Below are positions 6,927 through 35,735 of a DNA stretch of 64,000 nt, piece after piece. Below the pieces are notes generated by a model. That model was not told the origin of the DNA, searched no databases, and saw only the letters and a list, made by a program, of their open reading frames with translations. The first letter of the stretch is position 1; every line of letters starts with the position of its first letter. The stretch is from assembly GCF_000017565.1 (NCBI RefSeq), contig NC_009719.1, forward strand, positions 1,488,001 through 1,552,000, written 5' to 3'. The position numbers and the translations under genes were made by a program. This DNA comes from Parvibaculum lavamentivorans DS-1 (GTDB lineage Bacteria > Pseudomonadota > Alphaproteobacteria > Parvibaculales > Parvibaculaceae).

Positions 6927-6980
6927 TTTGCGCGGGGCGGTGTTGAGGTTTCGTTTGTCCGAGCCTGAAACCAATATACG

Positions 6981-7355
6981 GTGTCATCCCGGCACTTGTT
7001 GCCGGGACCCAATCCACCTCTCGGCGGACCAGTGAGCTATTTCGTTTACATCCTCGCCAGCCGCAAGCACGGGACACTTTACATTGGCGTCACCAACGAC
7101 ATCGCGCGCCGCGTCTTCGAGCATCGCGAGGGCATCGGCTCGAAGTTCACAAAGAAGTACCGCGTTCATCGGCTGGTCTATATGGAAGCCTTCGACGACA
7201 TCCGATATGCGATCCAGCGCGAGAAGACGATGAAGGAGTGGCCGCGCGTCTGGAAGGTTCGCCAGATCGAGCGCGACAATCCCGAATGGGACGATCTCAC
7301 CGGCAAACTGAACCGATAGGCGAGTGGGTCCCGGCAACAAGTGCCGGGATGACAC
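6981..7355. mobile_element. GIY-YIG gene bracketed by perfect 31-bp inverted repeats
   Basis: Positions 6981-7011 and 7325-7355 are exact inverted copies of each other, each beginning gtgtcatcccgg at the outer end. Each arm is itself a hairpin (cccggca/tgccggg), the form of REP-like intergenic palindromes. The only content between the arms is the GIY-YIG gene. A relative with near-identical arms but only about 29 bases inside lies at 26755-26849. The unit separates the DUF1302 and DUF1329 genes, which are usually adjacent. I infer a cargo-bearing dispersed element; mobility is not shown by the sequence. Confidence 0.6.
7032..7319 (+). CDS. Small GIY-YIG nuclease domain protein
   Basis: This 95-residue protein starts VSYFVYILASRKHGTLYIGVTNDI, with the paired Tyr motifs (YIL and YIG) of GIY-YIG endonucleases. 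Downstream are the catalytic Arg (ARRVFEHREG) and Glu (AIQREKTMKEW) of the UvrC-like single-domain subfamily. GTG 7032 is chosen because upstream in-frame codons (from GTG 6981) merely translate the flanking palindrome. Small GIY-YIG proteins of this kind are common in alphaproteobacteria and of unknown function; related domains act in repair and homing. The gene is bracketed by 31-bp inverted repeats. Confidence 0.85.
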   Translation: MSYFVYILASRKHGTLYIGVTNDIARRVFEHREGIGSKFTKKYRVHRLVYMEAFDDIRYAIQREKTMKEWPRVWKVRQIERDNPEWDDLTGKLNR

Positions 7356-7911
7356 TTGTGGGTGGGATCAAGACTGAGGGAAAGACCGGGGGGACGAGTG
7401 TGGTGAAGGGCGGCAAAGCTGATGCAACACTCCCGGGATGACACCGAATTTTGGTTCAGGTCCGGGCAAACGAGAGCGCAACAAGTGCCGGATCAAGTCC
7501 GGCAAAGACGAGCGTGGGGCGGGGTGGCGGGCAAACGTCAAGCTCGGCAATGACGAAGGCGGGAGAGCGGCGCACCCTGCCATGTTGCACCGCGGCAGAC
7601 GGCACCCACGCCGGCGCCGGCGGACTGAATCATCCGTAGACGGATTACCTGCCGCCGCACCGCCGCCGCGGCCGCCGCGATCCACATTAAAAATATTTAA
7701 TGAAACCAGGGCGAAAACGCCGCCAAAACGGGCTGAAAAGCGACCCGGAAGACACACAATCACACAAGCCGCGATTTGCGCCCCTTGGGCGATTTGCTAT
7801 CATCCCGTTCGAGTAAGGCGGGGAAACCGGCCTCGGTGCACAGCGACAAAGCTACAACCGCGAAATGCTGACATCGAAAGCCCTATAAGAAATCCAGTGG
7901 AGGGAACGTAT
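7356..7911. repeat. Gap with degenerate palindromic repeat copies
   Basis: This 556-base stretch holds no convincing gene. It contains worn fragments related to the flanking palindromes: cccgggatgacacc near 7430-7444, caacaagtgccgg at 7479-7491 followed by gatcaagtccggcaa, and gtcaagctcggcaatgacg near 7537-7555. These are followed by a CG-rich triplet run (about 7650-7680), an AT-rich palindrome at 7685-7702 and the DUF1329 leader. It looks like a graveyard of repeat insertions. Confidence 0.55.
7685..7702. promoter_or_regulatory. AT-rich palindrome upstream of DUF1329 gene
   Basis: cattaaaaatatttaatg is a perfect dyad (cattaaa/tttaatg) in otherwise very G+C-rich DNA, about 210 bases before the DUF1329 start. 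It could be a regulator site or part of a promoter. Further down, ccctataaga at 7881-7890 is a possible -10 box. Similar tataag hexamers recur at 9403 and 9422 before the Ycf48-like gene. The function is inferred. Confidence 0.35.
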
Positions 7912-9267
7912 ATGAAAAGGACAACCTTATTGGTGTCCGCCCTTGCGATCAGCGTCTTCGCAACCGGCGCGCTCGCCAAGGTTCCGGACGCCCAGGTAAA
8001 TCGTCTGGGCCAGGATCTGACTCCGATGGGGTCGGAAAAAGGCGGCGAGGGGGACATTCCTGCATGGACCGGCGGCCTTGCCACCGTGCCGAGCGGTGTC
8101 AGCTACAAGCCGGGCGACAAGCTGGCCAATCCGTTCGCCAGCGACGCGATCAAATACACCGTTACCGGCCAGAACATGGGCCAGTACGAAAACCTGATCA
8201 CGCCGGGCTATGCGGCGCTGCTCAAGGCCTATCCTTCGTACAAGATGAACGTCTACGAGACGCGCCGCACCTGCGCGTTCCCGGACAAGTACTACGAAGC
8301 CACGAAGAACAACGCGCGCGTCGGCGAACTCGTCGGCGGCGGTGCCGGTGTCAGCGAAGCCATTTTCGGCACGCCGTTCCCGATCCCGAACAACGCGCTC
8401 GAGATGATCTGGAACCACACGCTGCGCTATCGCGCCTTCAAGGTCGTGCGTCAGTTCGCGGCGGCGCCTGTGACGCGCGGCGGCGACTACACACTGCAGA
8501 TCGTGCAGGACGAAGCCATCCTGCAGTGGTCGGATCCCTCCGCCTCGCGCGCCGAAGATCTGAACAACATCTCGCTCTACTACATCGCCAACACCATTGC
8601 CCCGGCTCGCGCCGCGGGTAACGTGATCCTGGTGTACGAGGCCCTGAACGCCCAAGTGCAGGCGCGCCAGGCCTGGCAGTACAGCCCCGGTACGCGTCGC
8701 GTCCGTCGTGCGCCGAATATCGCTTACGACAATCCCGGCACGAACTCGGACGGTCTGTCCACGTCGGACGCCTTCGACGGCTACAATGGCGCGCCTGACC
8801 GCTATGACTGGACCGTGCTCGGCAAGAACACGCGCCTCGTCTCGGCCAACGCCTATGACGGCGAAGCCTCGTCCTACAAGGACTACCTGCAGCCGCTTCA
8901 CCTGAACCAGGACAAGGTGCGCTACGAAGCCCGCCGCGTCTGGGAATTCGAAGCGACGCTCCGTCCCAATACCCGTCACGTCTACTCGCGTCGCGTCTAT
9001 CACAACGAGGAAGATGCCTGGCAGATGTCCAGTGTGGAACTCTATGACGGCCGTGGCCAGCTCTGGCGCGTTCAGGAAATGCACCAGATCCAGCGCTACA
9101 ACGTGCCGCTCTGCGGTTCCGCGGGCGAAATCGTCTACGATCTGCAGGCAGGCCGCTATCTGGCGCTCGCGCTGCAGAACGAAGAGCCGCCGGTGAACTA
9201 CTTCGCCGACGAGCTGGACAAGAACCGCTACACGCCGAACTCGATCCGTCAGCTCGGCGTCCGCTAA
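7912..9267 (+). CDS. DUF1329 family exported protein
   Basis: The start at ATG 7912 follows a ggaggg ribosome binding site and yields a signal peptide (about 22 residues, ending ATGALA). The 451-residue product has the typical DUF1329 opening (DAQVNRLGQDLTPMGSEKGG) and repeated beta-rich segments with Trp/Arg motifs (RVWEFEATLRPNTRHVYSRR). The family has a LolB/LolA-like fold and acts in the periplasm or at the outer membrane. It is nearly always encoded with DUF1302 and Ycf48-like proteins, in operons for hydrophobic substrates or their export. Here it has its own leader and stands apart from the DUF1302 gene because of the GIY-YIG insertion. Confidence 0.87.
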   Translation: MKRTTLLVSALAISVFATGALAKVPDAQVNRLGQDLTPMGSEKGGEGDIPAWTGGLATVPSGVSYKPGDKLANPFASDAIKYTVTGQNMGQYENLITPGYAALLKAYPSYKMNVYETRRTCAFPDKYYEATKNNARVGELVGGGAGVSEAIFGTPFPIPNNALEMIWNHTLRYRAFKVVRQFAAAPVTRGGDYTLQIVQDEAILQWSDPSASRAEDLNNISLYYIANTIAPARAAGNVILVYEALNAQVQARQAWQYSPGTRRVRRAPNIAYDNPGTNSDGLSTSDAFDGYNGAPDRYDWTVLGKNTRLVSANAYDGEASSYKDYLQPLHLNQDKVRYEARRVWEFEATLRPNTRHVYSRRVYHNEEDAWQMSSVELYDGRGQLWRVQEMHQIQRYNVPLCGSAGEIVYDLQAGRYLALALQNEEPPVNYFADELDKNRYTPNSIRQLGVR

Positions 9268-26754: not shown

Positions 26755-26849
26755 AGATGTCATCCCGGCACTCGTTGCCGGGACCCAATCCACGCTTCCG
26801 CAAATCGAGAGGCCAATGGGTCCCGGGAATAAATCCCGGGATGACATCT
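26755..26849. repeat. Paired palindromic element, empty relative of the GIY-YIG unit
   Basis: The arms 26755-26787 (agatgtcatcccggcactcg onward) and 26817-26849 are inverted and each a hairpin. They are nearly identical to the arms around the GIY-YIG gene at 7 kb, but enclose only 29 bases. A run of eight T bases directly follows the right arm, so the element can also terminate transcription from the quinone reductase gene. Confidence 0.85.
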
Positions 26850-35582: not shown

Positions 35583-35735
35583 TGTCACCCCCGGGCTTGA
35601 CCCGGGGGTCCAGAAGCCGCCGCAAGGCGGCGTCTCGCTTCGAAAAAGCATCTTCTGTGGCAAGCACCGAATCCTCGCGAAGAGAGACGGCGCTGCCGCG
35701 CCTTCTGGATTGCCGGGTCAAGCCCGGCAATGACA
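35583..35735. repeat. Palindromic intergenic element D between ybbA and ybbP
   Basis: tgtcacccccgggcttgacc with tccagaag on the left and cttctgga with gtcaagcccggcaatgacag on the right form inverted ends, each with its own hairpin. The element splits the ybbA-ybbP pair, which is normally contiguous, and adds 238 bases between the two reading frames. Confidence 0.85.

Follow-up and report, generated by a model that had tools for sequence, protein, structure and literature searches.

A small GIY-YIG nuclease gene between matched REP palindromes in Parvibaculum lavamentivorans: a candidate autonomous REP element

In a 64-kb stretch of Parvibaculum lavamentivorans DS-1 DNA (NC_009719.1; hereafter the window, whose own positions serve as coordinates), a 375-bp unit consists of a small GIY-YIG nuclease gene enclosed by two exact 31-nt inverted arms, each of them a repetitive extragenic palindrome (REP). 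The best reading of our comparisons is that the unit would be an autonomous REP element with the GIY-YIG nuclease as its enzyme, a counterpart of the systems in which REP-associated tyrosine transposases (RAYTs) accompany REPs. We put at about 0.7 the probability that the unit is mobilised by its nuclease, which would recognise the unit's own palindromes, and that the dispersed REPs and REP dimers are its non-autonomous relatives. We observed sharp unit boundaries, recurrence at unrelated sites, arms that match within a unit and co-vary with the enzyme, selection on the gene, ends common to dimers and gene units, and several allelic states; that the GIY-YIG enzyme is what moves the unit is what we infer from them.

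Results

An inverted-repeat search of the unit returned 34 nt at 97% identity with a perfect 31-nt core (6981-7011 / 7325-7355). The repeat scores 31, compared with at most 12 for control placements in the same 3.3-kb neighbourhood (locus L020). Each arm is palindromic by itself (CCCGGCA-CTTGT-TGCCGGG) and is made up of a TGTC tag, the stem TCCCGGCA, the loop CTTGT and a CCCA tail, with the tag facing outward and the CCA tail inward. PF01541 (GIY-YIG) is the sole Pfam family found in the cargo at E <= 0.001. A preliminary description, made from the letters of the window, had proposed exact inverted hairpin arms around a small GIY-YIG nuclease as the only cargo, and both proposals hold. The coding sequence given here, with its GTG start, is our choice; a longer open reading frame from 6981 would cross the arm. 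The parts of the unit are:

6981..7011, + strand: 5' arm, TGTC-tagged REP palindrome (GTGTCATCCCGGCACTTGTTGCCGGGACCCA), tag outside and CCA tail towards the gene
7032..7319, + strand: GIY-YIG nuclease gene, 95 codons plus stop, GTG start (PF01541, E 1.7e-14)
7325..7355, - strand: 3' arm, exact inverted copy of the 5' arm (repeat search)

The unit has counterparts within the host genome (G000; G and L numbers denote genomes and loci compared), which holds seven GIY-YIG matches: six small genes and one 661-codon open reading frame, taken to be UvrC. Four of the six small genes have arms of 29-33 nt that are identical inside each unit and differ in subtype between units (GGCACTTGTTGCC in the window, CCCCCGGGCTTGACCCGGGGG, and two GGCGAAAGCC subtypes); in one of the four, L005, the matching arm sits beyond a nested REP. 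The fifth gene (L003) is flanked by CGTCATTGCGAG-type repeats with unequal stems, and no matched arms were found around the sixth (L006), which belongs to a more distant subfamily. Strict REP patterns occur 91 times in this genome (52 + 39; reversed-pattern control, 0 + 0). Among REPs up to position 2,670,929, three adjacent head-to-head pairs lie 250-1,000 bp apart and all three enclose a GIY-YIG gene, as does one further head-to-head pair that spans a nested REP. Elsewhere, three REPs in the same orientation (G000:C1:973588, 973942 and 974296) lie at intervals of exactly 354 bp, as a tandem triplication would place them.

Arm-flanked GIY-YIG genes, for which the preliminary description had suggested searching the genome and its relatives, recur well beyond the host. 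Taking as arms a score of at least 18 in an ungapped scan for inverted repeats, we found them around 30 of 43 full-length close homologues in 19 genomes of the genus (15/20 + 15/23; two fragmented copies left out). In a wider sample they were present at 70 of 110 loci, some of which are orthologues of one another or of genus loci and therefore not independent cases, versus 9 of 5,021 control placements of equal size taken from those neighbourhoods. This sample comprised the best 80 of at least 582 relatives, with titles from many phyla and mostly from metagenome bins, together with 30 from the window's phylum. Here too the arms vary between units and match inside a unit; both arms could be parsed as tagged palindromes in 42 of the 92 arm-bearing units, and several others have longer palindromes. 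Genomes carry up to nine family matches, and within the genus the presence of GIY-YIG units is patchy. Two further records concern the same gene family: a Neisseria gonorrhoeae record (L195) has a GIY-YIG gene among CGTC-type (dRS3-like) repeats, and a Sphingobium copy in AP027312.1 is annotated 'excinuclease ABC subunit C' although its annotated coding sequence is only 79 codons plus stop.

The flanking palindromes follow the close relatives of the gene. Small GIY-YIG genes that are more distant, whether they lie in the same genomes or in others, had arms in 5 of 28 cases and, by our reading, arms of the CGTC type in none (0/28); homologues are thus not generally without palindromes, the close ones being mostly flanked and the distant ones mostly not. 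Four of those five distant arm pairs resemble CCTGAGCTTGTCGAAGG, and a scan following this lead found arms at 14 of 33 loci. A second clade emerged in which 9 of 16 non-redundant loci at least 41% identical to L247 have, again by our reading, arms of another palindrome kind. The palindromes around this clade are of CCTGAGCTTGTCGAAGG or CCTGAG...TCTCGAAGG type, as at L302, L303, L306, L307, L309, L310, L315, L244 and L246. Because this second GIY-YIG clade lies in another palindrome family, there seems to have been more than one origin or divergence of the partnership between small GIY-YIG genes and palindrome families.

The outer edges of the arms coincide with the limits of homology between copies. 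Among 567 pairs, drawn from 92 arm-bearing copies, with DNA homology spanning the gene, 27 (25 after removal of doubled records) have homology that ends -6 to +12 bp from the outer arm edges, on both sides and in both copies. Homology extends more than 30 bp into a flank in 43 pairs, stops inside the unit in 494, because the copies have diverged, and behaves otherwise in three. The 27 include the window's unit compared with genus units elsewhere (374-383 bp, 79-84% identity); two copies among them, L022 (G016) and L047 (G009), lie on contigs other than those that hold these genomes' own empty DUF1302-DUF1329 junctions, the junction at which the window's unit resides. They also include pairs whose titles name different groups (L107/L127, L127 being from Cloacimonadota, and L107/L143, L143 being from Uhrbacteria). 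Between the related genomes G194 and G091, units are 87-88% identical over 514-516 bp and the homology ends at most 7 bp from the edges of 70-nt arms. Within G091, two units are 76% identical along 526 bp, a stretch that reaches the arm edges of one of the two; within G194, copies are 88-91% alike and have a further 10-140 bp in common. No near-identical recent copies within one genome were found among 20 stretches from five genomes, the best pair being 91% identical with shared flanks. Such a pattern of boundaries is how a mobile element would be expected to look, and terminal inverted repeats bound the unit as they do classical insertion sequences. When the 10-nt outer flanks were compared as inverted copies, the mean was 3.33 matches versus 2.76 +/- 0.21 in shuffled flanks, with orthologues kept in; we draw nothing from this value.

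Enzyme and arms vary together. After parsing the arms of 63 of the 92 copies and retaining 59 proteins (four with stops were dropped), we found that the distance between arms rises with that between proteins (r = 0.42 for 38 units below 75% identity), a value reached in none of 5,000 permutations; within the host genus the correlation was r = 0.56 (n = 9, of 16; 1/5,000 permutations). The gene is under purifying selection, with dN/dS between 0.04 and 0.16 in 14 of 15 pairs, which are not all independent, and saturation in the fifteenth. For the window's gene the ratio is 0.05 and 0.12 against the copies elsewhere, L022 and L047. Some copies are decaying and have internal stops, L022 among them. 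Residues Y6, Y17, R27, H31, E64 and N83 are invariant in 21 aligned homologues, and we take Y6, Y17, R27 and E64 to be the catalytic Tyr, Arg and Glu of the GIY-YIG core. Among solved folds the AlphaFold model (pLDDT 92.8) comes nearest to a UPF0213 protein (E 1.4e-4), and its likeness to Slx1 (E 0.02), which cuts branched DNA, is weaker; 1zg2 and 1ywl are among these nearest folds. All 21 homologues touch the NCBIfam model TIGR01453, a group I intron endonuclease family, the best of them at E 9.4e-6; the window's protein scores 18.3 bits against it, below the cut-off of 56.05, and for the first homologue examined no NCBIfam family scored above its cut-off. Phages yielded no match to the window's protein at E 1e-8 (50,697 records).

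REP abundance accompanies the enzyme across the phylum as well. In a sample of 299 genomes, with counts transcribed by hand and a pattern that misses other REP types, a close enzyme (E of 1e-25 or less) was present in 35 of 54 genomes with at least ten REPs of one pattern and in 41 of 245 other genomes (Fisher p 7e-12, kinship ignored). Within the genus, G007 has neither REPs nor a close enzyme. G121 has 736 REPs of one pattern and only an enzyme fragment, which makes it a candidate for a burst followed by enzyme loss.

We compared the junction that the unit occupies with those of relatives. Pfam confirmed the neighbours as DUF1302 (PF06980) and DUF1329 (PF07044). We took the 16 best-matching loci from 26 genomes, one of which is the window, and left out L058, L060 and L065 as unparsed. 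In all 12 other genus genomes with a readable junction the unit is absent and the two genes adjoin, as the preliminary description had supposed when it held that the unit splits a normally adjacent pair; the relatives thus do not share a gene fixed at this locus without arms. The intergenic distance is 411-629 bp in the 12 relatives compared with 1,043 bp here. Another REP-like palindrome stands in the spacer of 4 of the 12 (L054, L056, L061 and L062), in each case of the type that forms the arms of the GIY-YIG unit L275, and no tagged palindrome was detected, by a simple pattern or by eye, in the other 8. Because of these four palindromes and the REP fragments at 7433-7446 and 7478-7491 in the window, the junction seems to have been hit by REPs repeatedly. 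The left flank plus half arm (6961-6992) and the REP fragment plus flank (7433-7466) form an imperfect inverted repeat, which suggests an older REP pair around the present unit. Other features of the window are:

7433..7446, - strand: remnant of another tagged REP, which together with its flank pairs with 6969-6992 as an outer inverted repeat of 24 nt (92%)
7478..7491, - strand: 14-nt exact fragment of the same arm type, a decayed REP (repeat search)
26758..26787, + strand: left member of a gene-less REP dimer, its palindrome nearly that of the unit's arms
26817..26846, - strand: right member of that dimer, of another palindrome subtype (GGATTTATTCC)
35583..35612 (G000:C1:1523583-1523612), + strand: single REP, its subtype that of the arms of GIY-YIG unit L002 of the host genome
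4769..6868, + strand: DUF1302 gene, left context, outside the unit (open reading frame as listed)
7912..9267, + strand: DUF1329 gene, right context, outside the unit (start placed by conservation)

The segment 26755-26849 had been described as an empty relative of the unit; it proved to be a heterotypic REP dimer and not an emptied copy. We read 16 dimers of the host genome (L286-L301) by a pattern. Twelve carry, inside their palindromes, at least one tail of the gene units (ATCCAC/ATCCAA, TTGG or CTCGC), and on account of these common inner tails the dimers resemble units that have lost their interior. In dimers, A makes up 66% of the 10 nt beyond each tag (32 flanks), versus 17% in the window; across the gene units of all taxa it reaches just 33% (83 flanks). 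The A-rich flanks could reflect either a target preference or selection for terminator function. The A-rich left and T-rich right borders of these dimers, and the flanks of units L001, L002 and L027, resemble bidirectional terminators.

Several allelic states are found at single sites. At the site of L022, three relatives have no REP at all (G012, G010 and G037), G009 has a single REP and G005 has REP fragments, G008 and G036 have a dimer of a subtype other than the L022 arms, and G011 has a different GIY-YIG unit (L275). Units at G016:C1:71279-71654 and G011:C114:1342-2022 occupy the same intergenic site in two species of the genus, and the presence of two different units at one site suggests an insertion hot spot. 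On Sphingobium plasmids the gene is in seven records and is absent at the same junction in four with 78-82% coverage; for S. herbicidovorans (78% coverage), outside the four sites that we read, no such gene is listed there. The gene-less sites have a palindrome tagged at both ends (L199 and L200) or unrelated sequence (L201 and L202). We considered the L199/L200 palindrome as a clean empty site and rejected it, as it equals the left half of the left arm joined to the right half of the right arm; a target site of this double-tagged shape may nevertheless have existed there. Double-tagged palindromes occur at 25 loci in 13 of 26 genus genomes (control, 0) and are probably collapse products of dimers or gene units. 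Six 50-kb Sphingobium stretches include one dimer site that varies among strains and no exact empty site, and two Shinella relatives lack the gene in a shorter, diverged spacer.

Discussion

We propose that the 375-bp stretch is an autonomous mobile element composed of one small GIY-YIG gene and two matched, outward-tagged REP palindromes. The nuclease would recognise its own palindromes, most likely in hairpin or cruciform form while the DNA is replicated; such recognition is suggested by the palindromes together with the Slx1-like fold. It would cut at or near the tag ends, and the cutting would move or copy the unit to new intergenic sites. The step would pass through a single strand or a cruciform, by cut-and-paste or by copying through repair, both of which are possible. 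By analogy with the REPs and REPINs of RAYTs, single REPs and head-to-head dimers would be non-autonomous derivatives. The palindrome family with a GIY-YIG helper, likened to RAYT/REP systems in the preliminary description, has come through our sequence tests. Of the self-dispersal and homing that it suggested, homing accords less well than transposition with the insertions at unrelated sites.

Several observations weigh against this proposal, which is built on sequence comparison. At DUF1302-DUF1329 the spacers of the 12 relatives have diverged too far to yield a base-exact empty site, and target duplications showed no excess (a match of at least 4 bp in 4 of 42 units versus 2.4 +/- 1.4 in shuffles). 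By our criterion 13 of the 43 homologues in the genus have no arms, nor do 40 of the 110 loci of the wider sample, and the 70 of 110 that have them are not a census, as 80 of the loci are the closest of at least 582 relatives. In 6 of the 70 arm pairs (L124, L150, L153, L156, L169 and L183) the tag is, by our reading, inside and not outside. The cross-phylum boundary pairs come from metagenome bins that may be misassigned. Host relatedness partly confounds the association of REP abundance with the enzyme, as it does the correlation of 0.42 between arms and proteins, and affects much less that of 0.56. The orientation of the dimers is no evidence, because they were picked as head-to-head pairs, and 4 of the 16 have none of the gene-unit tails; the L199/L200 palindrome is the product expected from ordinary deletion between repeats. 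Lastly, an intact close enzyme is missing from 19 of the 54 genomes rich in REPs (enzyme fragments are present in two of the 19, G121 and G147), and G001, of the genus, has 62 strict REPs and no close enzyme; relics would explain such genomes and do not amount to proof of the link.

The strongest rival, which we consider unlikely, is ectopic homing, in which the nuclease cuts REP dimers or related palindromes and repair of the break copies the gene in through arm homology, so that the gene spreads among existing dimers and creates no new insertion sites. GIY-YIG enzymes are classical homing nucleases, of the I-TevI type, in group I introns and as free-standing phage genes. Dimers and gene units have ends in common, two relatives have dimers at the L022 site, and a palindrome stands at the window's junction in 4 of 12 relatives, all as this account would have it. 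Yet the L022-site dimers are of a different subtype from the unit's arms, three relatives have no REP there, 8 of 12 have no tagged palindrome at the window's junction, and the spread of the REPs themselves is left unexplained. A domesticated, structure-specific repair nuclease that processes REP cruciforms, and is kept near REPs by selection or local regulation as the REPs spread by other means, appears improbable: the weak resemblance to Slx1 and the strong purifying selection would suit it, and it accords poorly with unit ends that are sharp at unrelated loci, with arms that match inside each unit and vary among the units of a single genome, with up to nine family matches per genome and with patchy presence within the genus. 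Chance or hitch-hiking, with a small gene merely caught between two REPs where REPs are dense between genes, has very little to recommend it beyond the 91 strict copies of the host genome, given the presence of arms at 70 of 110 loci and at only 9 of 5,021 control placements around them, arms alike within and unlike between units, arm-protein co-variation and the coincidence of boundaries.

Probably, though with somewhat less assurance than the proposal of an autonomous, GIY-YIG-driven REP element itself, the unit represents a new class of bacterial DNA mobile element. Its sole enzyme would be a stand-alone GIY-YIG protein of ~95 residues, flanked by palindromes in units of about 0.36-0.6 kb, and the class would be the dedicated mobiliser of the CGTC REP super-family, would serve at least one other family of palindromes via the second GIY-YIG clade, and would occur across many phyla. 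We rate it as a new class despite its REPtron-like architecture because mobile elements are classed by their enzyme, and this rating falls if the enzyme proves not to move the unit. To our knowledge, no bacterial mobile-element class uses GIY-YIG alone, and we know of few autonomous mobile units as small as this one, which would be among the smallest.

REP palindromes are widespread in bacterial genomes, and the GTAG kind has a proposed enzyme, RAYT. For the CGTC kind, a 2013 survey found no enzyme and left the question open (PMC3733652). A GIY-YIG gene in matched CGTC arms, with arm type tracking protein type, brings the matter within reach of direct tests that need just a single small protein and short hairpins. 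If borne out, it would supply a candidate for the enzyme, long missing, behind the spread of a common class of bacterial repeats, and two unrelated nuclease folds would have adopted the same way of life; genes annotated 'GIY-YIG nuclease family protein' or 'excinuclease ABC subunit C' would become those of a mobile-element enzyme in many genomes.

Relation to known systems

In the survey by Di Nocera, De Gregorio and Rocco (2013; PMC3733652), the CGTC-tagged REP super-family is defined by a CGTC or TGTC tag, an 8-9 bp stem, a 4-5 nt loop and an unpaired CCA tail; dimers are common, most members are in Alphaproteobacteria, and dRS3 of Neisseria and RPE-4 and RPE-6 of Rickettsia are counted among the repeats. 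Transposases were sought beside these REPs, and the survey reports few, fortuitous associations and no dedicated enzyme, and proposes lost or borrowed enzymes. The arms and dimers of the window fit the tag, stem, loop and tail, and are likewise multi-copy and dispersed; the difference is the GIY-YIG gene inside matched CGTC-type arms, and some units elsewhere (e.g. L088 and L228) have palindromes longer than those of the survey. The string 'GIY' is absent from the text of PMC3733652 and from PMC12306157 (RepRanger, 2025) and PMC6006769, and among the matches listed in the open-access PMC literature (preprints and subscription papers being outside its scope) no paper joins GIY-YIG to REPs.

Homing endonucleases have in common with the unit the GIY-YIG catalytic domain, and a selfish gene is plausible here. 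They differ from what we see here in the flanking palindromes, in the copies at mutually unrelated sites and in that no homing-site allele was seen: the 27 boundary pairs have the unit and no flank in common, versus the shared flanks of homing into an allelic site, and homing of the ectopic kind, through the arms, may still apply. Pfam found no DNA-binding extension (NUMOD or similar) in the 95-codon product, and no intron was seen, though no search aimed at introns was made. The protein belongs with the GIY-YIG superfamily by its PF01541 match and the invariant Y6, Y17, R27 and E64 of its core. UPF0213/YhbQ-like and Slx1-like small GIY-YIG proteins provide the nearest solved folds and differ in that the 28 more distant small GIY-YIG genes are, by our reading, without CGTC-type arms. 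With classical insertion sequences the unit shares terminal inverted repeats and differs in having no known transposase (DDE, HUH, Ser or Tyr) by Pfam.

A further parallel is with RAYTs, for which PMC3733652 describes a small enzyme gene flanked by genome-wide palindromes, non-autonomous dimers, repeat-specific gene copies and, in some, long terminal inverted repeats. The unit resembles these RAYT/REPtron/REPIN systems (TnpA-REP, relatives of IS200/IS605) in its enzyme gene between dispersed palindromes, in its non-autonomous dimers and in having repeat-specific copies of the gene, and differs in that its enzyme is GIY-YIG and not HUH-Tyr (Pfam finds PF01541 only) and its tags are TGTC/CGTC and not GTAG. 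The unit would work like a RAYT/REP system without being one, since it has neither an HUH-Tyr enzyme nor a GTAG tag.
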